From positions 9,899 through 46,248 of the forward strand of contig JAGVUA010000069.1 of the NCBI GenBank assembly GCA_019136545.1: a stretch of DNA of 36,350 bases, written 5' to 3'. The notes below the pieces were generated by a model. It had not been told where the DNA came from. It worked only from the letters and a program-made list of their open reading frames with translations, and made no database searches. The translations under genes and the position numbers were made by a program. This document shows positions 1-30,614 of this stretch, piece by piece. The first letter of the stretch is position 1. Each line of letters starts with the position of its first letter. The DNA is from Betaproteobacteria bacterium. GTDB taxonomy: Bacteria; Pseudomonadota; Gammaproteobacteria; Burkholderiales; Rhodocyclaceae.

Positions 1-897
1 CTGAACGGCGTATTCATCGAGGACACTTTCGCCGAGGCCTTCGGCATGAAGGCGGCGCGCATCGTGGTGACGGCGTGCGATGCGACGTGGGCGCGTCACG
101 CCGGCCTGGCGGCTACCGGCTTCGCCACCTCGGTGATCGCCTGCGGCTGCGAGGCGGGCATCGAGGCGGAACTGGACGCCAGTCGAACGCCCGACGGCCG
201 GCCCGGCGTGGCGCTGCTGTTCTTCGCCGTGTCGACCAAGGAGCTGACGAAACAGATCGAGCGGCGCGTCAGCCAATGCATCCTCACCTGTCCGAGCACT
301 GCCGCCTTCGCCGGCCTCGCCGAGGGCGAGCCGCTGCCCATGGGAAATGCGCTGCGCTATTTCGGCGACGGCTTCCAGATTGCCAAGCGGGTCGGCGGCC
401 GACGCTACTGGCGTGTGCCGGTGATGGACGGCGAGTTTCTCTGCGAGGAGACGACGCCGATGGTGAAGGCGGTCGGCGGCGGCAACCTGATCTTCGTCGC
501 CGACAGCGCGGCGGCCGCGCTCGCCGCGGCGGAGCGGGCCGTGGCGGCGATCCGGCGCGTGCCCGGCGTCATCGCGCCCTTCCCCGGCGGCGTGGTGCGC
601 TCCGGCTCCAAGGTCGGCTCGAAGTACAAGGCGCTGCCGGCGTCCACCAACAATGCCTATTGCCCGAGCCTGCGCGGCCGGCCCGCCAGCGCCCTCGGGC
701 CCGAAGAGCGCTGCGTGCTCGAGGTGGTGATCGACGGCCTTAGCGCCGGGGCCGTCGCCGCCGCCATGGCCGCCGGTTTGCGCGCCGCCTGCGCGGTCGC
801 CGGCCTGCGTCGCGTCACCGCCGGCAACTACGGCGGCAAGCTCGGCCAGTTCCACTTCAGGCTGCGCGAACTCCTGGAGATGCCGCCGTGTCCCTGA
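1..897 (+). CDS. fhcD: Formylmethanofuran:tetrahydromethanopterin formyltransferase subunit (FhcD/Ftr), 5' end outside window
   Basis: Partial: the frame is open from base 1 (LNGVFIEDTFAEAFGMKAAR), matching the Ftr N-terminus (NGV-IEDTFAEAF), so the start lies a few codons upstream and the ATG at 46 is internal. The family hallmark GSKVGSKYK followed by a STNNAYCPSLRG stretch is present near two thirds of the length, and the C-terminus ends in GNYGGKLGQFHF as in other Ftr proteins. In methylotrophic bacteria FhcD is part of the formyltransferase/hydrolase complex FhcABCD, which moves the formyl group from formyl-tetrahydromethanopterin to methanofuran for release as formate. The stop overlaps the fhcC start by 10 bases, fitting the usual fhcABDC order; fhcA and fhcB would lie upstream of the window. 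Cytoplasmic. Identification is firm from the motifs. Confidence 0.95.
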   Translation: MNGVFIEDTFAEAFGMKAARIVVTACDATWARHAGLAATGFATSVIACGCEAGIEAELDASRTPDGRPGVALLFFAVSTKELTKQIERRVSQCILTCPSTAAFAGLAEGEPLPMGNALRYFGDGFQIAKRVGGRRYWRVPVMDGEFLCEETTPMVKAVGGGNLIFVADSAAAALAAAERAVAAIRRVPGVIAPFPGGVVRSGSKVGSKYKALPASTNNAYCPSLRGRPASALGPEERCVLEVVIDGLSAGAVAAAMAAGLRAACAVAGLRRVTAGNYGGKLGQFHFRLRELLEMPPCP

Positions 898-1715
898 GAC
901 TGACTTTGCGTCAGTCGCCGCCGGGGCGGATTTCGCTGGCCGGCATCGTGCCGGACAAGCTGGCACGGATGACGGCGGCCGACATCGAGCGCCTGCCGCT
1001 GCGCTGGGGCAAGGAAACGCCGGCACTGGGCGATTTTTTTCGCGTCGCAGGCGCGCCGGATCATCATTTGGTCTTCGAGGGCATGGATGCGCGTTTCTGC
1101 GACGTGGCGCGCGGCATGACGGCGGGCGAATGCGAAATCGGCGGCGATGCCGGCGATTTCGTCGCGGCGGACCTGCGGGGCGGCCGCGTCACGGTGCACG
1201 GTCGCGTCGGCGCCTTTGCCGCTTCGGGCATGCGCGGCGGCGAACTGCGCGTGAGCGGCGACGCCGGCGAGCGCCTCGGTGCGGCGTTGCCCTGGCTGGC
1301 GGCCGGCATGCGGGGCGGGCGGGTGCTCGTCGCCGGCAACGTCGGTGCGCGCTGCGGCGACAAGATGCGGCGCGGCGAGATCTTCGTCGCCGGCGATGCT
1401 GGCGACTTTTGCGCAGCGCGCATGGTGGCCGGCACGCTCGCGGTGGCCGGCCGCGTCGGCGCCCACGCCGGCTACGGCATGCGGCGCGGCACGCTGCTGC
1501 TGTTCGGCGCGGCGCCTTCGATGCCGCCAAGCTTCGTCGAGACGGCCTGCGTTGCCGGCGCCTACCTGCGCCTGCTGCGCCGCCACTGGCTGGAGACGCT
1601 CGATGCCGGCAATGTCTTCGCCCGCCACGCGGGCCGGGCGGGGGAATGGCGCGGCCGCCGCTGGCTGGGCGACCTGGCGGGCGACGGCCGCGGCGAAGTC
1701 ATGCACTTTGACTAA
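888..1715 (+). CDS. fhcC: Formyltransferase/hydrolase complex subunit C (FhcC)
   Basis: 275 residues from a GTG start that overlaps the end of fhcD, so the two are translationally coupled. The middle (about residues 75-205) is a run of glycine-rich turns of the form G-x-x-G-x-x-x-A-x-x-M-x-x-G, repeated roughly every 19-20 residues. This is the right-handed beta-helix of formylmethanofuran dehydrogenase subunit C and the C-terminal domain of glutamate synthase. In bacteria FhcC is a structural subunit of FhcABCD, which converts formyl-tetrahydromethanopterin to formate in formaldehyde oxidation. The C-terminal 70 residues are outside the repeat and rich in Arg and Trp. It is the last gene of the fhc operon here; the next gene has its own promoter. 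A copy of the dispersed AAAGTCAG element (reverse orientation) covers its first codons. Confidence 0.93.
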   Translation: MSLRLTLRQSPPGRISLAGIVPDKLARMTAADIERLPLRWGKETPALGDFFRVAGAPDHHLVFEGMDARFCDVARGMTAGECEIGGDAGDFVAADLRGGRVTVHGRVGAFAASGMRGGELRVSGDAGERLGAALPWLAAGMRGGRVLVAGNVGARCGDKMRRGEIFVAGDAGDFCAARMVAGTLAVAGRVGAHAGYGMRRGTLLLFGAAPSMPPSFVETACVAGAYLRLLRRHWLETLDAGNVFARHAGRAGEWRGRRWLGDLAGDGRGEVMHFD

Positions 1716-9352: not shown

Positions 9353-10516
9353 ATGAGATTCACGCAACAACCGCTGTGGTCGGCGGGTTTCCGCCCCTTC
9401 TTCATCCTGGCCTGCGTCGCCGGCCTCGGCCTGCCGATCTGGTGGGCCTTGATCTTCACCGGCAGCGTACCGCCGCCGCTGACTTTCGCCTTGCCGCCGG
9501 TTCAGTGGCATGCCCACGAAATGTTCTACGGCTTCGGCTGGGCGGTGTTCGGCGGCTTCCTGCTCACCGCCTCGAAGAACTGGCTGAACGTGCGCGGCTG
9601 GCATGGCGGCGCGCTGGTGTTGCTCGCCGCCGCCTGGCTGCTCGACCGGCTGGCCATGAGCCTGGGCGCCGGCTGGCCGCCGGCGCTGTTCTGGCTGGCC
9701 GCCGGCCTGTTCCAGGTGGCCATCGTCGCCATGCTGCTGCACACCATGCTGCCGCAGAAGGTGCGCGGCGGCGCCAGCGACAATTATTTCTTCTGGATCC
9801 TGCTGCTGCTGTTCCTGCCCGCCAAGTTCCTCATCCTGCAGCAAGCGCACTTCGCCGAAGGCTGGGCGATGACCCTGGCGCTGTTCCGGCTGGTGGTGCT
9901 CATCATGCTCGAGCGCACCCAGGTGCAGTACATGCGCCACGCCTTCCAGGCCGAGATCCTGCGCGATCCGCGCCTCGACGTTCCGATCAAGTGGCTGGCC
10001 CTGGCCCTGGCCTTCGCGCCCTGGCTGCCCGCCGCCGTCGCCGGCGGTGCCGAAGCCGTGCTGGCGCTGCTGCTGCTCGTCCGCTTCACGGGCTGGAAGC
10101 CGCTGCGCGCTTTCTCGCGCCTCGACGTCGGCATCATGTATCTCGGCTACCTGATGATCGTCGCGCAACTGCTGGTGGACGCGGTCGGCCATTTCGTGGC
10201 GCTGCCCTGGGTGGGCAGCGTTTCCGCGCACCTGTTCACCGTCGGCGTGCTCGGCACCATCATGCCGGCCATGATCGTGCGTATCGCCAAGGGCCATACC
10301 GGCCGCGAGGTGGTGTTCGAGCCGGCCGACAAGCTCGTGCTGTGGCTCATGATCGCCGGCCTGGTGGCGCGGGTCGTCATGCCGCAATTCCATCCGGCCG
10401 GTTATGCGATGTGGCTGCATATCGCCGCCACCACCTGGCTGCTCGCCTTCGCCATCCTGCTGTGGCGCTATGCGCCTTTCCTGCTGGCGCCACGCGTGGA
10501 CGGCAAGGAGCACTGA
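9353..10516 (+). CDS. nnrS: NnrS family protein
   Basis: 387 residues; the ATG at 9353 (MRFTQQPLWSAGFRPFF) is chosen over an in-frame upstream codon that would overlap the previous gene. It shows the canonical NnrS opening, LWSAGFRPFFILAC, then WHAHEMFYGFGWAVFGGFLLTASKNW, and about twelve membrane spans, with MIVRIAKGHTGRE near the C-terminal third. The conserved histidines are those expected to bind haem. In denitrifiers NnrS is under NnrR/FNR control and eases the effects of NO on iron proteins. It ends the + strand run and is convergent with the - strand response regulator; a perfect GNRA-loop hairpin lies between. Confidence 0.93.
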   Translation: MRFTQQPLWSAGFRPFFILACVAGLGLPIWWALIFTGSVPPPLTFALPPVQWHAHEMFYGFGWAVFGGFLLTASKNWLNVRGWHGGALVLLAAAWLLDRLAMSLGAGWPPALFWLAAGLFQVAIVAMLLHTMLPQKVRGGASDNYFFWILLLLFLPAKFLILQQAHFAEGWAMTLALFRLVVLIMLERTQVQYMRHAFQAEILRDPRLDVPIKWLALALAFAPWLPAAVAGGAEAVLALLLLVRFTGWKPLRAFSRLDVGIMYLGYLMIVAQLLVDAVGHFVALPWVGSVSAHLFTVGVLGTIMPAMIVRIAKGHTGREVVFEPADKLVLWLMIAGLVARVVMPQFHPAGYAMWLHIAATTWLLAFAILLWRYAPFLLAPRVDGKEH

Positions 10517-10550: not shown

Positions 10551-11072
10551 TCAATGCCGCTGTCCGTCGGCAAGGGATCGCCGCCTGCGGCGGGCAGCCC
10601 GTTGCCGGAGCGTCGCAAGCATCGCCTGGCTTGATGCGTCGGTCTTTGCCGTCAGCTGTCTTTGCAGCGTTCGACGGTGCATCCGCAGCGCGCGCGCCGT
10701 GGCGGAAATATTGCCGCCATGGTCGGCCAGAACGCGCATGATGTGTTTCCACTTCAGATGTTCCAGCGACCGCGCCTTGGCCAGCTTGATGGCGTCGACG
10801 GCCGTCCTGATGCTGGCGTAGCCGGTCAGGACCAGTATTTTCATGGCGGGGTTGATTGCGCGCAGAGGCCGTATCAGCGACAGGCCGGAATCGGCGGCCA
10901 GCCGGAGGTCGAGCACGACCGCGTCGGGCGCCGAGCGCGTCGCGGTCGCCAGCGCGGCGTGAACGTCGCGCGTGGAAACGGCCTGGTATCCTCGCCGCCG
11001 GAACAGGTGCGTCAGGACGCGCGACATATCGGGATCGTCCTCGACGATCAGGACGTGCGGGACATTGTTCAT
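10551..11072 (-). CDS. RegA/ActR/RoxR-type response regulator with an internally shortened receiver
   Basis: 173 residues from the ATG at 11072 (MNNVPHVLIVEDDPDM). A possible ATG 21 codons upstream adds a basic, non-family stretch, so I reject it. The receiver has the acidic pair EDD, the phospho-accepting Asp in VVLDLRL and the Thr in VLTGYASI. The C-terminal DNA-binding domain is a RegA-type Fis HTH (NISATARALRMHRRTLQRQL). Between them, AVDAIKL runs straight into AKARSLEHLKWKHI. RegA relatives have about 30-35 residues there, including the conserved Lys-Pro of the receiver's last strand and helix. Phosphorylation-dependent switching may thus be lost. A 30-residue basic tail (RQRAARRRRR) is also atypical. 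Located 124 bases downstream of norD; no partner kinase is seen. Confidence 0.85.
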   Translation of the reverse strand: MNNVPHVLIVEDDPDMSRVLTHLFRRRGYQAVSTRDVHAALATATRSAPDAVVLDLRLAADSGLSLIRPLRAINPAMKILVLTGYASIRTAVDAIKLAKARSLEHLKWKHIMRVLADHGGNISATARALRMHRRTLQRQLTAKTDASSQAMLATLRQRAARRRRRSLADGQRH

Positions 11073-11196
11073 GCTCGTGCTGTCGGTTTTGGGGGAAAGG
11101 CGGCGATTATCGGCACGAACGCGCTTGATATCCATATGACATATCGCCGCGCGTCGGAATGTCGCGACCGTTTTCCGCCCCAGGGAGCGGCCGGGC

Positions 11197-16230: not shown

Positions 16231-16665
16231 TCAGCCCTGGATGTTGGGCGGCCATTGGGCGGTATCGATTTGCGAGACGTAGTTCAGGAACGCGGCGATT
16301 TCGTCGAGCTGCTGGTCCGTGAAGTTGAACTGCGGCATGCTGCGCCGGCCCGGAATGCCTTCCTTCGGCCGAGACTGGATGAACGCCTTGACGGCTTCCT
16401 CGCTGCCCAGACGCTTGACTACGTTGCCCAGTTCCGGCGCGAAATAGGCGCCTTCGCCGAGCAGGGTGTGGCAACCGATGCAGTTGTTGGTTTCCCAGAG
16501 CTTCTTGCCGGCGACGACTTTCGGGTCGGCCAGCATTTCATGTCTGTCGCGCTGAGGGATGCTCCGCTCGGTCTGGTAGGTCAGCGCCAGAAACACCAGC
16601 AGGAAGAACAGCGTTCCTCCATAGAACATGTTGCGGGCGGTGGCGGTGGTGAATGAACTGCTCAT
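16231..16665 (-). CDS. norC: Nitric oxide reductase cytochrome c subunit NorC
   Basis: 144 residues from the ATG at 16665, preceded by GGGAGG at good spacing; an upstream ATG in the frame lies across the promoter and is rejected. One N-terminal membrane anchor (about 14-30) holds a periplasmic cytochrome c domain with the haem motif CIGCH (62-66) and axial Met110 in RRSMPQFNF. It passes electrons from soluble cytochromes to NorB. First gene of norCBEFQD, transcribed from a promoter with a perfect FNR/NnrR-type box. Confidence 0.96.
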   Translation of the reverse strand: MSSSFTTATARNMFYGGTLFFLLVFLALTYQTERSIPQRDRHEMLADPKVVAGKKLWETNNCIGCHTLLGEGAYFAPELGNVVKRLGSEEAVKAFIQSRPKEGIPGRRSMPQFNFTDQQLDEIAAFLNYVSQIDTAQWPPNIQG

Positions 16666-16825: not shown

Positions 16826-16844
16826 GTGCTACATAGTGTCGCAC
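16826..16844. promoter_or_regulatory. 19-base dyad, copy 1 (TonB-locus operator family)
   Basis: GTGCTACA-TAG-TGTCGCAC: seven of eight base pairs are symmetric, the most regular copy of the family. It lies in the AT-rich middle of the norC-tonB gap. No TAGAAT-like -10 occurs at the spacing used by the other copies, so its direction and target (tonB or norC) are open. Confidence 0.55.
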
Positions 16845-16989
16845 GCCCCGATTTTTTTGCGGTATTTTTATGACTTATTCATAGCCGGGGCGGTTTCGTG
16901 GCGGCAGGATTCCGTCCATGGCAAGCCAGGGGGATAGGTGCTGCCGGCGGATCGCCGGCGCGCGGCGCGCCGAGGGCGGCGACACCGGG

Positions 16990-17035
16990 AAGCGACAAAT
17001 TGTCACACCCCCGGCATGCGGCGATCGGCGAAAAT
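16990..17035 (+). promoter_or_regulatory. tonB promoter: 19-base dyad, copy 2, with -10 box
   Basis: AAGCGACA-AAT-TGTCACAC (16990-17008) is centred at 16999. The hexamer GAAAAT, followed by TC, starts at 17030, 31 bases from the dyad centre. The same distance and the same following TC occur at both receptor promoters. No good -35 box is present at standard spacing, consistent with activation from the dyad. Confidence 0.6.
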
Positions 17036-17078
17036 TCGGACCTCGCCGATCCTTCTCCCGCCAGGGTAAAAAACCTTC

Positions 17079-17753
17079 GTGTCGACTGTCGAACCTTTCA
17101 TGCCGACTTCGCCGCCGTTGCGTCGCGCGACCTGCTTCGCCCTGGTCGTGGCAGCGCATGCCGGCTTGGCCTGGGCCGCGGTCGAACTGGCCCGGCAGCC
17201 GGCCGTGCGCCAGGTTGCGGAGGCGCTGATGGTGCGCCTGATCGAACCGGCGCGACCGGCACCGGAAGTCCAGCTGCCCCCCCGACGGCAGTCGCCGCCG
17301 AAACTGCGCGAACCGGACATCGCGCCCTTGCCGCCGGTGACGATCGCCCTCGCGGTCGAAGCGCCGGCAGCGATCCATGTGCCGCCTGCGCCTGCGCCCG
17401 CGCCCGCACCTGCCGCCGTCGCGCCGTCGCCGCCACCGGCGCCGCCGCTCCCCGCACCGGTGGCGGTGATCGCGGCACGCTTCGACGCCGACTACCTGTC
17501 CAATCCCAAGCCGGTCTACCCGGTGGGCTCGCGCCGCCTCGGCGAGGAAGGCACGGTGTTGCTGCGGGTGAAAGTCAGTCCCGGCGGCACGCCGATCAAC
17601 GTCGAAATCAAGCGTTCCTGCGGCTTTCCGCGCCTCGACGAGGCGGCCCGCCTCGCCGTCGAGCAATGGCGCTTCGTGCCGGCCCGACGCGGCGACGAAG
17701 CGGTGGAATCCTGGGTATCGGTGCCCATCGTCTTCTCCTTGCAAACCTCCTAA
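17079..17753 (+). CDS. tonB: TonB-family energy transducer
   Basis: 224 residues from GTG at 17079; an ATG at 17100 (217 residues) is an equally possible start, since neither has a strong ribosome site. An N-terminal signal anchor (about 15-35, CFALVVAAHAGLAWAAVEL) is followed by a Pro/Ala-rich spacer (about 70-135) to cross the periplasm. The C-terminal TonB domain has YPVGSRRLGEEGTVLLRVKVSPGG and LDEAARLAVEQWRFVPAR. It couples inner-membrane proton force to the outer-membrane receptors encoded next door. The usual SSG turn reads SCG here, adding an unusual cysteine. ExbB and ExbD are not in the window. Its promoter carries the shared dyad. Confidence 0.92.
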   Translation: MSTVEPFMPTSPPLRRATCFALVVAAHAGLAWAAVELARQPAVRQVAEALMVRLIEPARPAPEVQLPPRRQSPPKLREPDIAPLPPVTIALAVEAPAAIHVPPAPAPAPAPAAVAPSPPPAPPLPAPVAVIAARFDADYLSNPKPVYPVGSRRLGEEGTVLLRVKVSPGGTPINVEIKRSCGFPRLDEAARLAVEQWRFVPARRGDEAVESWVSVPIVFSLQTS

Positions 17754-17757
17754 ACGC

Positions 17758-17820
17758 CCGCGACAAGGCGTCGCACGCGGCAACGTGTCGCACGGGTCGC
17801 GCTGACCCCACTCCTAGAAT
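17758..17820 (+). promoter_or_regulatory. Promoter of receptor operon 1: tandem 19-base dyads and TAGAAT
   Basis: Two dyads lie 17 bp apart and share two bases: CCGCGACA-AGG-CGTCGCAC (17758-17776) and ACGCGGCA-ACG-TGTCGCAC (17775-17793). The -10 box TAGAAT (17815-17820) begins 31 bases after the centre of the second dyad. Inferred start is near 17827, so the dyads are centred at about -43 and -60. Confidence 0.65.
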
Positions 17821-17884
17821 TCCCGCCGTCGAGCCGCGTCAGACGAGTTGTCGGGTGGGGCGCTGTTACATCGGGGGATTCGTC

Positions 17885-20158
17885 ATGAAGGCAGCACGCG
17901 GTATCGCATTATTGGCATTCAGCGAGTTGGTCGTATGGCCGACGGCGGCGCTGGCGCAGGATTCCAAGCTGAGCGAGGTGACCGTCTATGGCGAGCGGCC
18001 GGCGGCGTTTCGCAACATCACCACGTCGACCGAAGCCGCGACCGCTGAAATCATCGACGGCACCAACGTCATCAACACCGAGGATGCGGTCAAGTATCTC
18101 CCAAGCATTCAGATACGCAAGCGCTACATCGGCGACAGGAACGCCATCGTCGCCTCCCGCAATGCCGGCACGCTCGATAGCGCGCGTTCGCTGGTCTATG
18201 CCGACAACGTGCTCGTATCCAATCTGCTGGGCAATTCCTACGCTTTCGCACCGCGCTGGTGGTTCGTCATGCCCCAGGAAATCGAGCGGGTGGACGTCAG
18301 TTACGGCGCCCATTCCGCGGCCTATGCGGGCAACGCCGTCGGCGTGGTGATGGTGATGAAGTCCCGGCTGCCGGATCGCTTCGAGGCTGCCGCCGACGCC
18401 CAGGCCTTCCGGCAGAATTTCAAGCTCTACGGCACCAGCGAGTCCTACGAAGGGTCCCGTCTGGGTGCCTTTCTCGGCAACAGGCACGGCGATCTGCGCT
18501 GGACTTTCGGCTTCAATCATTTCGAGAACGACGGTCACCCGCAGTCCTTTGTGACCTCCAGCCGCGGGACGACGGCCGCCGGTGCGGGCGATATCGCGGT
18601 GACGGGATACCGATGGGACCGCAATCCCAAGAACGCCGATCGGCTCATCCTGGGCGCCACCGGCATGGACCACACGGTACAGGACAACGCCAAGGTCAAG
18701 CTGGCCTACGACTTTTCGCCCGCGTCGCGACTCACCTACACCCTGGGCCGTTGGCAGGGCGATTCCAAGGCGGGCGTCGATCCCTATCTTCGCGACGCGC
18801 TTGGGCGGCCCGTCTACAGCGGCAACGTCAACATCGACGGCATGCGCTATACCCTGGCGGCAACGGCATTGCAGCTCAGCCGGCGCGAGGAAGAGCATTG
18901 GATGAACAGCCTGGCCTATCGGTTCGACCCCAAACTGGGGGGGGACTGGGCCTTCGAGATGGCGGTGACCGATTACAACATCGCGCGGGACCAGACGCGC
19001 AAGCCGACCGTCGCCCTGCCCGCCGCCGATGCCGGCGGGGCAGGCCAGATACAGCGCCAGGACGGGACCGGCTGGAATACTGCCGACGTTCGTGCCGACT
19101 GGCGTCCGCAGCAGGGACGCCTCGGACACGAACTGGCGTTCGGTTATCACTTCGACCAGCACGTGCTGAAGGACCGGACTTTCGACACGGCGAACTGGCG
19201 TTCAGGCACCGAGGATGCGTTGCGGTCGGGCGCGCGCGGCAAGACGGAAACCCAGGCCATCTACGTGCAGGACGCCATCCGGCTCGGCGACGATTGGCAG
19301 CTGACGCTCGGGCTGCGCAACGAGCAGTGGCGGGCATTCGCCGGCGCCATGTCCAGCCGCGCCACTACTCTGGCTTACGCGGATCGCGAGGAGAATTTCA
19401 TCTCGCCGAAACTCGCGCTGTCCTGGGTGGCCTCGGAACACTGGCTGCTGCGCGGCGCCTTGTCGCGCGCGGTTCGTTTTCCCACGGTCACCGAGCTGTT
19501 CCAAGGCTCGGTGTCGGGAACGTCGATCATCAATAACGACCCGAATTTGAAGCCGGAGAAAATCCTGGCCGGCGAATTGGCGGCAGAGCGCGACATCCCG
19601 TCCGGCAGCCTGCGGATTTCCTTGTTCCAGGACAATCTCGAAGATGCGCTGACGCGCCAGACCAATACGACGGTATCGCCGACGGTGACGAACGTCCAGA
19701 ACGTCGACAAGGTCCGGGTGCGCGGTGTCGAAGCCTCATTCAATCGCCGCGATGTGCTGATTTCCGGCCTGGACCTGATGGGCAGCGTGACGTATGCGGA
19801 TTCGCAGATCCTGTCCAACAAGAAGAATCCGGCCAGCGTCGGCAAGCAGATGCTGCGCATTCCCGACTGGCGCGCCACGCTGGCGGCGATGTGGCATGCC
19901 AGCGACAAGCTGGACCTGACGCTGGCCGCGCGCTATTCCGGCCGGCAATACGGCGAGCTGGACAATAGCGACACGCACGACAAGACCTTTGGCGGCTCGA
20001 GCCGATTCTTCGTGGTCGACGCCAAGGCCAGCTTCCGGATCGATCGGCAACTGTCCGTCTCGGTGGGCGTGGACAATCTCAACAACGAGCGCTACTACGC
20101 CTATCACCCTTATACGCAGCGCACCTGGGTGGCTCAACTCAAGTACGCGTTGCGCTGA
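17885..20158 (+). CDS. TonB-dependent outer-membrane receptor 1
   Basis: 757 residues from the ATG at 17885, with a GGGGGA ribosome site and a signal peptide (KAARGIALLAFSELVVWPTAALAQ). The frame is open for 329 codons further upstream but that overlaps tonB. A plug domain (about 45-155: VKYLPSIQIRKRYIGDRNAIVASR, IERVDVSYGAHSAAYAGNAVGVVMV) is followed by a 22-strand barrel ending in WVAQLKYALR, whose C-terminal aromatic-Arg end is not the usual terminal Phe. Substrate unknown. No CxxxM site like that of the second receptor is seen. The stop overlaps the next start (TGATG), so it is made together with the BNR and thioredoxin-like proteins. The shared promoter design with the copper receptor hints at copper or a copper chelate. 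Confidence 0.9.
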   Translation: MKAARGIALLAFSELVVWPTAALAQDSKLSEVTVYGERPAAFRNITTSTEAATAEIIDGTNVINTEDAVKYLPSIQIRKRYIGDRNAIVASRNAGTLDSARSLVYADNVLVSNLLGNSYAFAPRWWFVMPQEIERVDVSYGAHSAAYAGNAVGVVMVMKSRLPDRFEAAADAQAFRQNFKLYGTSESYEGSRLGAFLGNRHGDLRWTFGFNHFENDGHPQSFVTSSRGTTAAGAGDIAVTGYRWDRNPKNADRLILGATGMDHTVQDNAKVKLAYDFSPASRLTYTLGRWQGDSKAGVDPYLRDALGRPVYSGNVNIDGMRYTLAATALQLSRREEEHWMNSLAYRFDPKLGGDWAFEMAVTDYNIARDQTRKPTVALPAADAGGAGQIQRQDGTGWNTADVRADWRPQQGRLGHELAFGYHFDQHVLKDRTFDTANWRSGTEDALRSGARGKTETQAIYVQDAIRLGDDWQLTLGLRNEQWRAFAGAMSSRATTLAYADREENFISPKLALSWVASEHWLLRGALSRAVRFPTVTELFQGSVSGTSIINNDPNLKPEKILAGELAAERDIPSGSLRISLFQDNLEDALTRQTNTTVSPTVTNVQNVDKVRVRGVEASFNRRDVLISGLDLMGSVTYADSQILSNKKNPASVGKQMLRIPDWRATLAAMWHASDKLDLTLAARYSGRQYGELDNSDTHDKTFGGSSRFFVVDAKASFRIDRQLSVSVGVDNLNNERYYAYHPYTQRTWVAQLKYALR

Positions 20159-21348
20159 TGGGGCCGCATCGACGTTTCCAACGGCTGGCCCGCGCTTGCC
20201 TGGGCATCGCCGCGGGCTTGCTTGCGGCGGCTTCTCAGGCCCAGGCCGCGGACAAGGTCGCCATGCCCAAGGCGGAGCTTGGCAGTTCGGCCCTGTTTGC
20301 GCGGGACGGCAGCCTCATAGCGGTCGCGAAACAGGGCGAACACGTCATGCTCTACCGCAGCCGCGACGAGGGGCGCCACTGGGAACCGCCGGTGGTGGTG
20401 AATGTCACGCCCGAGCCGATTTCCGCGGACGGCGAGAACCGACCCAAAGTGGCCGAGACCTCGGAAGGCGCACTCCTCGTTTCCTGGACGCGGCCGCTGG
20501 CCAAGCCTTACGCCGGCGAGATTCGCCTGGCGCGCGGCATCGATGGCGGCGCGCGCTTCGATTCGCCGATCACCGTGCATCGCGACCGCCAGGAGATCAC
20601 CCATCGCTTCGAATCGATGCTGACCGGACCGGCGAACCGCGTCTATCTGGCATGGATCGACAAGCGCGATCTCGAGTCGGCGAAAACCGCGGGCAAACGG
20701 TATCGCGGCGCAGCGGTTTACCTGGCGATGTCCGAGGACGGCGGCCAGCGCTTCCAGCCGGAAATCAAATTGGCCGACCACTCCTGCGAGTGCTGCCGCA
20801 TCGCCGGCGCCCTGGATGCAGACGGGGCGCCGCTGTTCCTTTGGCGTCACGTGTTCGAACCGAACGAACGGGATCACATGCTGGCCAAAGTCAGCCGCGG
20901 CGGCACGCCGGTTTCTGCGCACCGCGCCACCTTCGATCGCTGGAAAGTGGACGGCTGCCCGCATCACGGACCTTCGCTGGCCGTAGCGCCAACCGGCGTC
21001 GTGCATGCGGTGTGGTTCAATCAGGCGCATGGCGCTGGGCGCGTGTTTTACGGACGCCTGCGCGAGGGCGGCGTCGACGGGCAGCGCACCGTCGGGGGCG
21101 AGCGCGCCGAACATGCCGACCTGGCCTTGGCCGACCAGCGCATTGCCATTGTCTGGAAAGAGTTCGATGGCGAACGGACTCGTCTTCATGCGGAAGTTTC
21201 CCGCGATGGCGGCGCCACTTTCGAATCGCGCGCGCTGGCGGTTACCGAGCGCGCGTCCGATCAGCCGCGCGCACTGCGCCGGGGCGGCGAACTGTTCGCG
21301 TTCTGGCGCACCGAGCGCGAGGGCATGAGGGTTTTCCCGCTGCAATGA
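20158..21348 (+). CDS. Exported BNR-repeat (sialidase-fold) protein with CxCC and CPHH motifs
   Basis: 396 residues; the ATG overlaps the receptor stop by one base. Signal peptide MGPHRRFQRLARACLGIAAG to about residue 31 (AQA-ADKV). Asp-box-like repeats define a beta-propeller: SRDEGRHWEPP, SEDGGQRFQPE, SRDGGATFESR. The sialidase arginine triad and nucleophile are not apparent, so real sialidase activity is doubtful. Distinctive are SCECCRI (Cys210, Cys212, Cys213) and DGCPHHGP (Cys267, His269, His270), both in exposed loop contexts and well suited to bind a soft metal. Co-translation with a TonB receptor and a thioredoxin-like protein suggests a periplasmic or surface metal-binding partner. 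The function is inferred, not known. Confidence 0.8.
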   Translation: MGPHRRFQRLARACLGIAAGLLAAASQAQAADKVAMPKAELGSSALFARDGSLIAVAKQGEHVMLYRSRDEGRHWEPPVVVNVTPEPISADGENRPKVAETSEGALLVSWTRPLAKPYAGEIRLARGIDGGARFDSPITVHRDRQEITHRFESMLTGPANRVYLAWIDKRDLESAKTAGKRYRGAAVYLAMSEDGGQRFQPEIKLADHSCECCRIAGALDADGAPLFLWRHVFEPNERDHMLAKVSRGGTPVSAHRATFDRWKVDGCPHHGPSLAVAPTGVVHAVWFNQAHGAGRVFYGRLREGGVDGQRTVGGERAEHADLALADQRIAIVWKEFDGERTRLHAEVSRDGGATFESRALAVTERASDQPRALRRGGELFAFWRTEREGMRVFPLQ

Positions 21349-21818
21349 TGCGGATGATTCCCGTTTTGATCGCGGTGACGATGCTGGCGGGAACGGCCGC
21401 GGCCGCGGCGCCCATCGTGCCGATCGACCGGGCCGCCGCGCGCGACCTTGGCGACGCCCGGCGCCATCGGGGACCGACGATCATCGCGCTTTGGTCGACC
21501 GAGTGTCTGTATTGCAAGCGCAACCTGAAATTGTTCGCCGACATGCAACGGCGCAGCCCCAATCTGCGCGTGATCACCGTCGCCACCGAGCCGTGGTCAC
21601 CGGCGCTGGCCGCACCCCTGGATCGCCTGAAGATCCTGGGAGACAGGTATGCCTACGGCGACGATATGCCAGAAGCCGTGGCCTACGCCATCGACCCGCA
21701 GTGGCGGGGCGCCCTGCCTCATACGCTGTTCTTCGACGGGCGCGGCGGGCGAACGGCGATGACCGGCATCGTCGACGAGGCCGCGGCCAGCCATGCGCTC
21801 GGCATCGCGCAGCGCTGA
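21345..21818 (+). CDS. Exported thioredoxin-like protein (CLYC)
   Basis: 157 residues; the ATG overlaps the previous stop (ATGA), with a second ATG directly after. An N-terminal signal peptide (IPVLIAVTMLAGTAAAAA) precedes a thioredoxin fold with LWSTECLYCKRNLKLF; the redox pair is Cys54 and Cys57, with Leu-Tyr between. GALPHTLFFDGRGG supplies the cis-Pro loop. TlpA-like proteins of this type reduce cysteines in the periplasm, often for haem or copper-site assembly. The likely client is the Cys-rich BNR protein in the same operon (inference). It ends the three-gene unit; 90 bases separate it from the next receptor. Confidence 0.83.
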   Translation: MMRMIPVLIAVTMLAGTAAAAAPIVPIDRAAARDLGDARRHRGPTIIALWSTECLYCKRNLKLFADMQRRSPNLRVITVATEPWSPALAAPLDRLKILGDRYAYGDDMPEAVAYAIDPQWRGALPHTLFFDGRGGRTAMTGIVDEAAASHALGIAQR

Positions 21819-21828
21819 GCCGGGCCGG

Positions 21829-21874
21829 GTGCGACATCATGTCACGGGGATGGCGCCGGGCGGCTGTCTAGAAT
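21829..21874 (+). promoter_or_regulatory. Promoter of the OprC-like receptor: 19-base dyad and TAGAAT
   Basis: GTGCGACA-TCA-TGTCACGG (21829-21847) is centred at 21838, exactly 31 bases before the -10 box TAGAAT (21869-21874), which is followed by TC. The arrangement copies that of receptor operon 1. Inferred start near 21881, leader about 28 bases. Confidence 0.65.
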
Positions 21875-21908: not shown

Positions 21909-24176
21909 ATGAAAACCAAGCTACTTCCCATCGCCCTGGCCCTCGCGGCCTTGCCTCCGGCCGCCTTCGGTCAGGAAACTCCCTTGTCTCCGGTGCTCGT
22001 CCCCGGTGCGCGCGTCGCCGACGTTGCGGGCTCGGCGCGCGTCGATGCCGCGGCCCTGCCGGCGCTGCGCGCCGCCACCAGCGACACCGCCGCGCTGCTG
22101 CGCGACATTCCGGGCGTCAGCCTGTACGGCGCCGGCGGCGTGTCCAGCCTGCCGGCGATCCACGGCATGGCCGACGACCGCCTGCGCATCAAGATCGATG
22201 GCATGGACCTGACGGCGTCCTGCCCCAACCACATGAATCCGCCGCTGTCCTATGTCGATCCGAGCAACGTCGGCGCGCTCAAGGTCTATGCCGGCATCGT
22301 GCCGGTCAGCGTCGGCGGCGACAGCATCGGCGGCAGCATTGTCGTCGAAACGCCGACGCCGGTGTTCGCCGCGCCCGGCCAGGGCCGTCTGCTCAAGGGC
22401 GAACTCGGTGCTTTCTACCGCAGCAATGGCGACGCCAAGGGCGGCAACGTTGCCGCGACGTTCGCGACGGAATCCTTCAGCATCAGTTATGCCGGCGCCG
22501 TCGCCGAGTCCGACAACTACGAAGCCGGCGGCAAGTTCAAGGCCTTCACCGCGACCGGCAACGGCGCGCGGACCCTGTCGCGCGACGAGGTGGGTTCGAC
22601 CGCCTATGAGACGCGCAACCACGCGCTGAATCTGGCCTTGCGCGGCGGCAACCATCTGGTCGAGCTCAAGCTCGGCTATCAGGACCTGCCTTACCAGCTC
22701 TATCCGAACCAGCGCATGGACATGCTGGACAACGAACAGAAGCGCATCAACCTGCGCTATCTCGGCCAGTTCGGCTGGGGCGCGTTCGAAGCGCGGGCCT
22801 ACCGCGAGACGGTCAGGCACCACATGGACTTCGGTGCCGACAAGCGTTTCTGGTACGGCTCGCTCTCTGGCGGCGGCAGCACGCCGTGCACGCCGATTCG
22901 CTACGCCGGCGATCCGGCCGGCACCTGTGCCACCGGCATGCCCATGGATACCGACAGCGACACCACCGGCGTCACCGTCAAGGCCAGCATCGACCTGGCG
23001 CGCCAGGACCAGCTGCGGCTCGGCGCCGAACTCCAGCGCTATCACCTCGACGATTGGTGGCCGGCCTCCGGCGGCGGCATGGGGCCGGGCACCTTCTGGA
23101 ACATCAAGAATGGCGAACGCGACCGGCAGGCGGCGTTTGCCGAGTGGGAAGGCCGTCTCGGTTCGCAATGGACGGCCCTGGCCGGCGTTCGCTACGAACG
23201 GGTCGAAACCGACGCCGGGAACGCCCGGGGGTACAGCACGGCGGCGATGGCCATGGGCAACCAGGTGGTCGACGCCAGCGCCTTCAACGCCCGCGGCCAT
23301 CGTCGCACCGACAACAATGTCGACCTGACGGCGCTGGCGCGCTATGCCGCCGACGGCAATACCGACATCGAGTTCGGCCTGGCGCGCAAAGTACGCTCGC
23401 CCAACCTCTACGAGCGCTACACGTGGTCCACCTGGCCGATGGCGGCGGTGATGAACAACTTCGTCGGCGATGGCAACGGCTATGTCGGCGATATCGGCCT
23501 CAAGCCCGAGAAGGCCAATACCGTCAGCGCCACGGTCGACTGGCATGCCGCCGACCGCGCCTGGGAATTCAAGGCCACGCCCTATTACTCGCACGTGGAG
23601 GACTACATCGACGCCGTGCGCTGCCCGGCCGGCGCCGGGTGCACGCCGGCGAACGCCACGACCGTCAACCAGTTCGTCGTGCTGAAGTACGCCAACCAGT
23701 CGGCGCGGCTCTACGGCATCGACTTGTCGGGACGCATGCCGCTGGCGAAGACCGGGTTCGGCGACTTCGGTCTGCGGGGCCTGATCAACTACACCAACGG
23801 CAAGAATCGCGACACCGGCGACGATCTGTACAACATCATGCCGCTCAACGCCCGGCTGACCTTGAGCCATGCGCTGGGCAGCTGGAGCAACGCTGTCGAA
23901 CTGGTGGGGGTCAAGGCGAAGCACAAGGTATCCGACGTCCGCAACGAGCTTGAAACGCCGGGTTACAGCCTGGTCAATCTGCGCGCCAGCTACTCCTGGA
24001 AACAGCTGCGCGTCGATTTCGGCATCGAGAACCTGTTCGACAAGCGCTACTACCTGCCGCTGGGCGGTGCCTACGTGGGACAGGGCACCACCATGGGCAT
24101 CAACGCCGTGCCCTGGGGCATCGCCGTTCCCGGCATGGGGCGCTCCTTCTACACCGGCCTGAACGTGAAGTTCTGA
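21909..24176 (+). CDS. OprC/NosA-type TonB-dependent copper receptor
   Basis: 755 residues with a signal peptide (KTKLLPIALALAALPPAAFGQ) and a plug domain (DTAALLRDIPGVSLYGAGGVSSLPAIHGMADDRLRIKIDGM). In OprC of Pseudomonas aeruginosa copper is held by a CxxxM motif in the plug and an HxM motif in the barrel. Both are present here: C105-P-N-H-M109 and H304-H-M306. Other family blocks follow, including NHMNPPLSYVDPSNVG, and the chain ends in a terminal Phe (TGLNVKF), typical of barrel insertion. NosA, the same family, supports copper supply to N2O reductase in Pseudomonas stutzeri. Single gene behind a dyad promoter and ended by a rho-independent terminator at 24228. Copper is a strong inference from the ligands. 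Confidence 0.88.
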   Translation: MKTKLLPIALALAALPPAAFGQETPLSPVLVPGARVADVAGSARVDAAALPALRAATSDTAALLRDIPGVSLYGAGGVSSLPAIHGMADDRLRIKIDGMDLTASCPNHMNPPLSYVDPSNVGALKVYAGIVPVSVGGDSIGGSIVVETPTPVFAAPGQGRLLKGELGAFYRSNGDAKGGNVAATFATESFSISYAGAVAESDNYEAGGKFKAFTATGNGARTLSRDEVGSTAYETRNHALNLALRGGNHLVELKLGYQDLPYQLYPNQRMDMLDNEQKRINLRYLGQFGWGAFEARAYRETVRHHMDFGADKRFWYGSLSGGGSTPCTPIRYAGDPAGTCATGMPMDTDSDTTGVTVKASIDLARQDQLRLGAELQRYHLDDWWPASGGGMGPGTFWNIKNGERDRQAAFAEWEGRLGSQWTALAGVRYERVETDAGNARGYSTAAMAMGNQVVDASAFNARGHRRTDNNVDLTALARYAADGNTDIEFGLARKVRSPNLYERYTWSTWPMAAVMNNFVGDGNGYVGDIGLKPEKANTVSATVDWHAADRAWEFKATPYYSHVEDYIDAVRCPAGAGCTPANATTVNQFVVLKYANQSARLYGIDLSGRMPLAKTGFGDFGLRGLINYTNGKNRDTGDDLYNIMPLNARLTLSHALGSWSNAVELVGVKAKHKVSDVRNELETPGYSLVNLRASYSWKQLRVDFGIENLFDKRYYLPLGGAYVGQGTTMGINAVPWGIAVPGMGRSFYTGLNVKF

Positions 24177-24511: not shown

Positions 24512-25153
24512 ATGCCAAACAAGAAAACGGCCATTTCAGCGGCGCGAAATATTCTTTCGGCCGCCGTCATGTCAGCAGCGCTGGCAATCCCGCTCTCAGC
24601 CAATGCGGGCAATATCATTCCGGGAAACTGGAGCTGGCTTATGGCGACAGGTAATTTCGGCACGCTGCGCGCCGGCTCCGTCTGGGCGCCCGAGCCCTCC
24701 TTTGCACTCATCAATCGGATGTCAAGTGTCGTTGACAACACTTTCCTGCCGGCGAGCACCGCCTGGAATTCAGGTACTTTGTGGTGGGATCAAGACCCAT
24801 CGGTCAATAGCGGCCTAGTAACGTTCGAGATCGACTTTTCCAGCATTCAGACCATGAATCGCTTCGTCGTTCAGGCCGATGACAACGATACGTATCAGCT
24901 CGATTTCTGGAATGGCGCCGGTTGGCAAAGCGCGTGGTCAATTGCTGCAGTTGGAGGCTGGGGCATGCAGACACGCGATTCCGGCATCCTGCCTGCAATC
25001 ACTACGGATCGCTTACGCTTTTATGGAACGGGTGGCGACAATTACCTCGCCGTGTCTGAAATTCAGGCATACGGGGTACCCGCGCCAGGCACGCTTGCCC
25101 TGCTCGGGCTTGGTCTTGCCGGTTTGGGAGCGCTGAGGCGTCGCAAGGCCTGA
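24512..25153 (+). CDS. PEP-CTERM sorting domain protein
   Basis: 213 residues from the ATG at 24512, with GGGAG six bases upstream; an earlier ATG in the frame lacks a ribosome site. A signal peptide (to about SANAG) leads to a jelly-roll-like region (TFEIDFSSIQTMNRFVVQADD, LDFWNGAGWQ, DRLRFYGTGGDNYLAVSEIQAYG) resembling discoidin-type carbohydrate-binding folds. The C-terminal sorting tail is VPAPGTLALLGLGLAGLGALRRRKA without break: motif, hydrophobic helix and Arg cluster. The consensus PEP reads PAP here. Such proteins are handled by exosortase EpsH and linked to exopolysaccharide and floc formation. Exosortase is not in the window. It sits alone between two terminators behind a sigma54 promoter. 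Confidence 0.88.
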   Translation: MPNKKTAISAARNILSAAVMSAALAIPLSANAGNIIPGNWSWLMATGNFGTLRAGSVWAPEPSFALINRMSSVVDNTFLPASTAWNSGTLWWDQDPSVNSGLVTFEIDFSSIQTMNRFVVQADDNDTYQLDFWNGAGWQSAWSIAAVGGWGMQTRDSGILPAITTDRLRFYGTGGDNYLAVSEIQAYGVPAPGTLALLGLGLAGLGALRRRKA

Positions 25154-29325: not shown

Positions 29326-30614
29326 ATGAGCAGAATTTTCCTGGCCGCGCTGGTCATGGCCGTTTCGCTCGCCGCCAAGGCGGGCGTGCAGATCCAGCAC
29401 TGGGTGGCGCCTTCGGGCGCCCGCGTCTATTTCGTCGAATCGCACGACTTGCCGATCCTGGATATCGACGCGAGCTTCGCCGCCGGCGGCGTCTATGCGC
29501 CCGCAGGCAAGACCGGTCTCGCCGGCCTGACGCACGGTCTGCTCGACGGCGGTGCCGGCGACCTCGACGAGGAGGCCATTTCGGCGCGCCTCTCCGACAT
29601 CGGCGCCAGGATGGGCGGCTCGGTCGACGACGATCGCGCCGCCGTCACGCTGCGCACGCTTTCCTATCTCAAGGAAAGGGAAGCCGCGCTCGACCTGATG
29701 CGGCTCGTGATGACGCAACCGGCATTTCCCGAAACCGTGCTGGCGCGCGAAAAAGCGCGCACTATCGCCGCGATCCAGGAGGCGGACACCAAGCCGGACG
29801 CGATCGCCGCCAAGCGCTTCGCCGCGGCCATCTATCCCGGCCATCCCTACGGCGCCAGCGCCACGGCGGAAACCGTCGGCCGCATTGGCCGCGACGATCT
29901 CGTCGCCTTCCATCGCGACTACTACTCGGCGAAGCGGGCGACGGTGTCGATCGTCGGCGACGTCAGCCGCGAAGAGGCGGAGCGGATCGCCCAGCGACTG
30001 ACGGAATCGTTGCCGGCCGGCATTCCGGAAACGCCGCTGCCGGCGGTGACGCTGCCCAAGGCGGAGACGGTCAAGGTCGCGCATCCGGCGACGCAGAGCC
30101 ACATCCACGTCGGCCTGCCGGCGGTGAAGCGCGGCGACCCGGATTACTTCGCGCTCATCGTCGGCAACTACACGCTGGGGGGCGGCGGCTTCGTTTCGCG
30201 CCTGATGAAGGAGGTGCGCGAAAAGCGCGGTTATGCCTACAGCGTCTATTCGTACTTTGCGCCGAAGCGGCTCGCGGGACCGTTCGAGATCGGCCTGCAG
30301 ACCAAGCGCGAACAGGCCGGCGACGCGCTCAAGGTAGCGAGCGACGTTCTCGCGGGCTTCATCAAGGACGGGCCGACCGCGGCCGAATTGGCGGCGGCGA
30401 AGAAGAACCTGATCGACGGCATGGCCTTGCGCATCGACAGCAATGCCAAGTTGCTCGGCCATCTCTCGACCATCGGCTTCTTCGGCCTGCCGCTGACCTA
30501 TCTCGACGACTTTCCGGTCAAGGTGGCCGCCGTGACCGCCCAGGACGTGCGAGAAGCTTTCGCCCGCCACATTAAACCGGAACACCTCGTCACCGTCATC
30601 GTTGCCGGCGACTG

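Follow-up and report, generated by a model that had tools for sequence, protein, structure and literature searches.

A probable RegA-type promoter with near-fixed spacing at copper-import genes of a Rhodocyclaceae bacterium and its relatives

The closest described counterparts of the regulation proposed here are the RegB/RegA systems (also PrrBA, ActSR, RegSR and RoxSR), for which the published motifs are GNGRCRTTNNGNCGC for RegR, SSGNVRDNHYSNCSS for RegA and YSCGGC(5)GWCRMA for PrrA (PMC5506826). No strong consensus emerged from chromatin immunoprecipitation (ChIP) sequencing of PrrA, whose sites were called degenerate (PMC4263372), no such consensus was found in A. ferrooxidans (PMC5506826), and the accessible text of PMC8191878 and PMC9104464 offers one putative RoxR sequence and otherwise no usable motif. 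RegR affects copCAB (PMC4064962), and RegB/A has been linked to iron uptake in a study whose accessible text holds no motif (PMC13274454). Little is known about the regulation of copper import in Gram-negative bacteria; for the receptor OprC, a CxxxM-HxM copper motif has been described, and the down-regulation of oprC is called unexplained in the same source (PMC8610252). Here we analyse a window of 36,350 nucleotides from a Betaproteobacteria bacterium of the Rhodocyclaceae (contig JAGVUA010000069.1, positions 9,899 to 46,248), in which a 19-bp dyad precedes tonB, an operon headed by a TonB-dependent receptor (receptor 1) and an OprC/NosA-like receptor gene (Table 1). We propose, with a probability of roughly 0.85, that the dyad is a RegA-type box and that RegA, together with a RegB encoded outside the window on contig C82, would activate these copper-import genes and, in relatives, copper-delivery genes.

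A preliminary description of this sequence had listed five dyads, all of which we confirmed by scans with the 19-mer and with its 15-mer core GCGACANNNTGTCGC. The 19-mer at up to three mismatches matched six places in the window, namely the five dyads and a site at 30547, compared to 0.41 expected, and none of 100 shuffled sequences reached six. The core at up to one mismatch matched exactly the five dyads, which also represent five copies of GCGACA-N3-TGTCGC (up to one mismatch) inside 5 kb. Their symmetry is imperfect, with 7 of 8 pairs matching in the dyad at 16826 and 5 of 8 in each of the other four. At the tonB, receptor 1 and NosA/OprC-like promoters, the -10 box starts exactly 31 bases after the dyad centre, and TC trails all three boxes; the tonB box, GAAAAT, is likewise found at +32 in three NosA promoters of relatives (L032, L040 and L106). 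The dyads had been said to occur only here, which holds for the window at up to one mismatch in the core and fails for the genome (3.4 Mb), where the core at up to two mismatches occurs at 586 places versus 439 for the reversed pattern, none of the copies in the window genome being perfect. A genome scan, as proposed in the same description, gave a near-background result for the core alone, while the core combined with the spacing and the -10 box (core-N23-TAGAAT, up to three mismatches) was rare, with six places versus two for the control. The two best of the six were the receptor 1 and NosA promoters, and tonB was also among them.

The dyad has the form of the 15-bp odd-length inverted repeat GCGNC-N5-GNCGC, and the published RegA-family motifs, which are odd-length as well, align with it in register. 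Over 33 R. capsulatus RegA ChIP 15-mers (PMC5359404), the mean number of mismatches to the dyad consensus was 3.97, compared to 8.71 (standard deviation 0.27) after letter shuffling. Moreover, the tonB dyad read on its reverse strand, GTGACAATTTGTCGC, equals the R. capsulatus cydA RegA ChIP site GTGACAATTTGTCCC save for one base. The opinion that no regulator with such a site has been described is thus not supported, as the dyad matches the RegA/PrrA/RegR box. Similar to the RegB/RegA systems, the case described here combines this box form with a regulator of the Fis-type helix-turn-helix class and a dyad before regBA; unlike the degenerate published sites, the dyad is a near-perfect palindrome in several relatives, is sometimes in tandem, keeps a fixed spacing and stands before copper-import genes. 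Given the copper link of these genes and the nor genes next to them, a copper or nitrogen-oxide regulator unrelated to RegA (DNR of the CRP/FNR type, NorR, CueR or CopR) might be expected to bind the site. However, a comparison covering DNR and NorR found site forms that mismatch the dyad. The DNR consensus CTTGATnnnnATCAAG (TTGAT-N4-ATCAA; PMC1274295) is even-length, whereas the dyad is odd-length with different half-sites, in line with the earlier remark that it does not fit CRP/FNR boxes. NorR sites of the form GT-(N7)-AC lie upstream of sigma-54 promoters (PMC1274295), whereas the dyad has AC-N5-GT at its centre and is followed by a sigma-70-type -10 box, although no scan was aimed at sigma-54 promoters. 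As the arrangement dyad-N23-TAGAAT also tracks the presence of RegA (see below), binding by such a regulator appears very improbable.

The promoter recurs before NosA-like genes of relatives. Matches to the NosA-like receptor (E <= 0.001) were obtained in 76 of 121 genomes, many of them distant receptors, and 35 gene copies were used (34 from relatives and the window's own), excluding G052:C302 (contig edge), G052:C63, G061:C705, G061:C73:15261, fragments in G003 and G023, and weak matches. Within about 360 bases upstream, a dyad with up to two mismatches was present in 22 of the 35 copies, compared to 10/350 for ten control palindromes. When 23 promoters were aligned on the dyad (the 22 above plus L041, with three mismatches; L098 entered this count with a four-mismatch site despite a better one further upstream), TANNNT stood at +31 in six and at +32 in eight (14/23), with none at 15-30 or 33-46 and four at 47-51. 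Thus, the spacing of 31 bases and the trailing TC, both exact at the three promoters of the window, are relaxed in relatives, which have either 31 or 32 bases at this place and do not conserve TC. Outside the order, among six of 30 class-level loci that were scanned, the dyad (up to two mismatches) preceded four of six NosA-like genes, with the boxes TACTAT, TAGCCT, TAGCCT and TCGAAT at +32. The dyad centre would therefore lie near -43/-44 of the inferred transcription start, a class-II-like activator position.

The arrangement also follows the presence of RegA, which was assigned to genomes by a cut-off lying between E < 1e-33 and E > 1e-17. In 61 RegA-positive genomes, including that of the window, dyad-N23-TAGAAT was found at 59 places versus six for the reversed pattern, compared to eight versus ten in 60 RegA-negative genomes. 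Counted by genome, 37/61 RegA-positive and 7/60 RegA-negative genomes carried it (p = 1.7e-8), and within the window's family it was present in 28/45 and 1/28, respectively. NosA-like copies behaved likewise, with a dyad at 20 of the 26 in RegA-positive and two of the nine in RegA-negative genomes (p = 0.006).

The preliminary description had suggested looking for a regulator gene whose own promoter carries the dyad, and this points to regBA. Among 38 relatives (of the 60 other RegA-positive genomes), 16 carry a dyad with up to one mismatch between -250 and +150 of a regB-like frame, compared to 0/380 for controls, and a one-mismatch dyad lies just before regB in the window genome. The full-length RegA of this genome (C82:62365-62877) was the best of 53 matches with 172 bits, under the 250-bit cut-off of NF033791. 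The accompanying RegB matches HATPase_c above the cut-off and HisKA just below it (26.8 versus 26.9), and it contains both the quinone motif GGAANPL and the redox-box cysteine in QVAACKRIISGL. A further one-mismatch dyad of the window genome precedes a PCuAC-containing operon, with the -10-like box TATCCT at +30, so that the geometry is approximate there. Two relatives have a second regBA pair that is transcribed away from a neighbouring NosA-type gene, with a dyad in between; this gene has 62% identity to that of the window in G013 and 33% in G118. The RegB proteins of these pairs, at loci L150 (G118:C42) and L151 (G013:C102), both have GGxANPF, and a redox-box cysteine was found in that of L150 but not in that of L151.

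Several observations weigh against the proposed role of RegA. The regB promoters have no clear -10 box at +31/+32, the TANNNT peak being 4/31 at +33; the idea that they share this geometry was rejected, so that it does not apply to RegA targets in general. The link to RegA is weaker outside the window's family (9/16 versus 6/32, p = 0.019), and the counts are not independent because the genomes share ancestry. Six of the 26 NosA-like copies in RegA-positive genomes have no dyad, and both dyad-bearing copies of the RegA-negative class come from G033, a 92% complete assembly in which RegA was not found. Perfect cores do not separate the classes, with 151 (control 71) in the 61 RegA-positive and 83 (control 46) in the 60 RegA-negative genomes, and in the window genome the core without a -10 box stays close to background. 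Some of the 30 loci that were read from the scans are probably chance matches with no plausible gene behind them. The core alone was rejected as a genome-wide marker, being near background or about twice the control in both RegA classes; the signal is carried by the promoter arrangement and not by the core alone. That the dyads are mere chance palindromes of a GC-rich genome would agree with the near-background frequency of the core, but it is contradicted by the control palindromes, the shuffles and the near base-exact spacing across genera, and we consider its probability negligible.

Genes behind dyad-N23-TAGAAT were read at 30 scan loci (29 from the multi-genome scan plus L058), with 18 first genes and two genes of L016 compared to Pfam and ten to NCBIfam. 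Copper receptors of family TIGR01778 follow the promoter in L157 (535 bits, above the cut-off) and L175 (453 of 472 bits), both truncated by the end of the locus, and six further first genes encode TonB-dependent receptors; the loci also include the NosA promoters of G015 (L172) and G004 (L174). First genes of the copper-delivery type encode PCuAC (L165), SCO1/SenC (L170 and L178) and NosL (L173), and MbnP is encoded in L154 (TIGR04052, 280.9 bits with a cut-off of 140). A redoxin (L161) and a DUF2946 protein (L162) were also found, while the first genes of L160, L176 and the window genome's own locus on C39 (L058) had no family match. The proteins of L058 and L160 (G118), directly behind dyad-N23-TAGAAT and without a Pfam family, look related by eye.

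Relatives of receptor 1 were found in only two assemblies of the named-genome scan, a Rhodocyclaceae and a Betaproteobacteria metagenome-assembled genome, with 68-71% identity. The dyads before this gene group are again repeated, with two and four mismatches in L024 and zero, zero and three in L025. Measured from the weakest, gene-proximal copies (four and three mismatches, respectively), the -10 boxes are TAACAT at +32 in L024 and TAGGAT at +31 in L025. The BNR-repeat protein (68% and 34% identity in L024 and L025) and the thioredoxin-like protein (60% and 30%) accompany the receptor in both. The gene order of this group differs in L025, and an in-frame TAG lies inside the L024 tonB frame (9716-9718), a copy that may be broken or misassembled.

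Overall, these data support a shared activator-type site that joins tonB and both receptors into one copper-linked regulon, as first described, and the regulator, which had been thought dedicated, is probably a global redox regulator. In the proposed mechanism, RegB would sense the quinone pool through its GGAANP motif and redox-box cysteine, and RegA (ActR/PrrA/RoxR family) would bind the dyad about 43-44 bases before the inferred start, beside a weak -35 region, and help RNA polymerase at sigma-70-type promoters with a TAGAAT-like -10 box. The import targets would be tonB, the receptor 1 operon and NosA/OprC, and the delivery targets in relatives PCuAC, SCO/SenC, NosL and MbnP. We infer that the bound protein is RegA, that it acts as an activator and that the signal lies in quinones becoming reduced when terminal reductases that need copper run short of it; from the gene set, we hypothesise that copper shortage is what is signalled. 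Judged from sequence comparison, this suggests that relatives of the window genome switch on copper import via a respiration sensor rather than a classical metal sensor. More tentatively, RegB/RegA may be a functional sensor of copper sufficiency, in which copper-starved oxidases or nitrous oxide (N2O) reductase would lead to reduced quinones, phosphorylated RegA (RegA~P) and hence to import, a TonB of its own and chaperones. In this model, which we consider possible though doubtful, no protein of the loop would need to bind copper as a signal, and the second regBA that some lineages have beside a nosA-type gene would serve the same loop.

Cys156 of R. capsulatus RegA is located in the helix-turn-helix region. 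The R. capsulatus protein binds copper and shows copper-driven dimerisation at this residue (PMC9147068), whereas the only cysteine of RegA in the window genome is residue 74, in the receiver, and direct copper sensing of the Cys156 type is therefore not expected. The CrtA/BfrG operons (PMC12914433) are similar in that TonB-dependent copper import is tied to heme-copper oxidases and a few operons include PCuAC and SCO; in B. pertussis, by contrast, control is post-transcriptional by CruR, and the accessible main text of that paper does not contain the term RegA. Compared to OprC/NosA receptors, the receptor of the window is alike in its fit to CxxxM-HxM (CPNHM at residue 105 and HHM at 304, a pattern match that was not aligned to the OprC structure) and in its sub-threshold match to TIGR01778 (TonB-copper; E = 3.8e-37, 128 bits, under the 472-bit cut-off), for which reason it is called OprC/NosA-like; the RegA-type promoter is proposed for the window genome's relatives and not for Pseudomonas. 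In the accessible open-licence literature, we found no case in which RegA controls TonB-dependent copper receptors; the box and the regulator are already known, while the clean consensus, the fixed spacing of 31/32 and the copper-import regulon were not found there. A RegA promoter common to tonB and two receptors would be a testable answer to how these relatives regulate copper import, and, if true, would tie copper-requiring N2O reduction to a respiratory redox sensor. Moreover, with its clean consensus and fixed spacing, this promoter is a simple candidate for RegA dependence in a regulator family with sites described as degenerate (PMC4263372, PMC5506826).

The fifth dyad lies 28 bases, not 31, before a TATTTT on the tonB strand, and we assign it to the divergent norC, upstream of which it is conserved, rather than to tonB. 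Four relatives (G046, G028, G034 and G070) carry GCGACAATATGTAGC at -174 to -177 of norC, and a dyad with up to two mismatches was present in 7/29 norC upstream regions compared to 13/290 for controls (loci were available for 30 of 59 matching genomes, the region upstream of L198 being too short to count); two of the seven (G013 and G065) have it elsewhere. Placing norC in the +31 class was rejected, as none of the four relatives that share its dyad shows a -10-like box at that offset. All five genomes with a nor-linked RegA-type gene (four relatives and that of the window) carry the norC dyad, versus 0/24 others (p = 8e-6); genes up to about 6 kb from norC were counted as nor-linked, weaker paralogues could be missed, and the canonical RegA of G024, at about 13 kb, was not counted. 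This coincidence, the nearly identical recognition helix of the nor-linked paralogue and the dedicated regBA copies that G013 and G118 carry in divergent orientation to a NosA-type gene would be expected if the main binder were a RegA paralogue, for instance the nor-linked protein of the window acting as a dedicated regulator. However, dyad-bearing NosA genes occur in genomes for which no RegA-type gene was found at up to 1.5 kb from norC (for example G024, with its canonical RegA at the distance given above, G067 and G008), and the dyad also precedes canonical regB. We therefore consider a paralogue unlikely as the main binder and retain RegA for this role. The nor-linked regulator of the window keeps the phospho-acceptor aspartate, while its receiver in the alignment has no stretch bearing the conserved K-P; among three nor-linked paralogues of relatives (L183, L184 and L186), glutamate replaces this aspartate in two. 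The nor-linked proteins thus look atypical and are perhaps phosphorylation-independent regulators.

Table 1 Features of the window discussed in the text (-10 positions are counted from the dyad centre)
Feature	Position	Strand	Evidence or remark
RegA-type dyad, tonB promoter (AAGCGACAAATTGTCACAC), centre 16999	16990..17008	+	19-mer and core scans
-10 box GAAAAT, tonB, +31	17030..17035	+	
Tandem dyad, upstream copy, receptor operon 1	17758..17776	+	Scans
Tandem dyad, promoter-proximal copy, receptor operon 1, centre 17784	17775..17793	+	Scans
-10 box TAGAAT, receptor operon 1, +31	17815..17820	+	
RegA-type dyad, NosA/OprC-like receptor promoter, centre 21838	21829..21847	+	Recurs before NosA-like genes
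-10 box TAGAAT, NosA/OprC-like receptor, +31	21869..21874	+	
Fifth dyad, GCGACACTATGTAGC on the norC strand, centred ~170 bases upstream of divergent norC	16826..16844	-	
tonB	17079..17753	+	PF03544 TonB_C, E = 4.6e-20
TonB-dependent receptor 1	17885..20158	+	PF00593, 1.1e-55; PF07715, 5e-13
BNR-repeat protein, receptor operon	20158..21348	+	Weak BNR matches under Pfam cut-off
Thioredoxin-like protein (label by eye)	21348..21818	+	No Pfam or NCBIfam match
OprC/NosA-like TonB-dependent receptor	21909..24176	+	Pfam receptor domains
norC, first gene of norCBEQD	16231..16665	-	PF00034 cytochrome c, 1e-12
RegA-type response regulator after norD	10551..11135	-	PF00072, PF02954; NF033791, 100.5 bits (cut-off 250)

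The gene names norCBEQD are our own reading of the domains, which are PF00115 for norB, PF00510 for norE, PF08406 for norQ and a VWA match just under the cut-off for norD; the window also holds an NnrS gene. At one end of the window (46-1715), methylotrophy-type C1-transfer genes encode a formylmethanofuran-tetrahydromethanopterin formyltransferase and a GXGXG protein. A protein with a PEP-CTERM sorting signal is encoded at 24512-25153, downstream of the NosA-like receptor.

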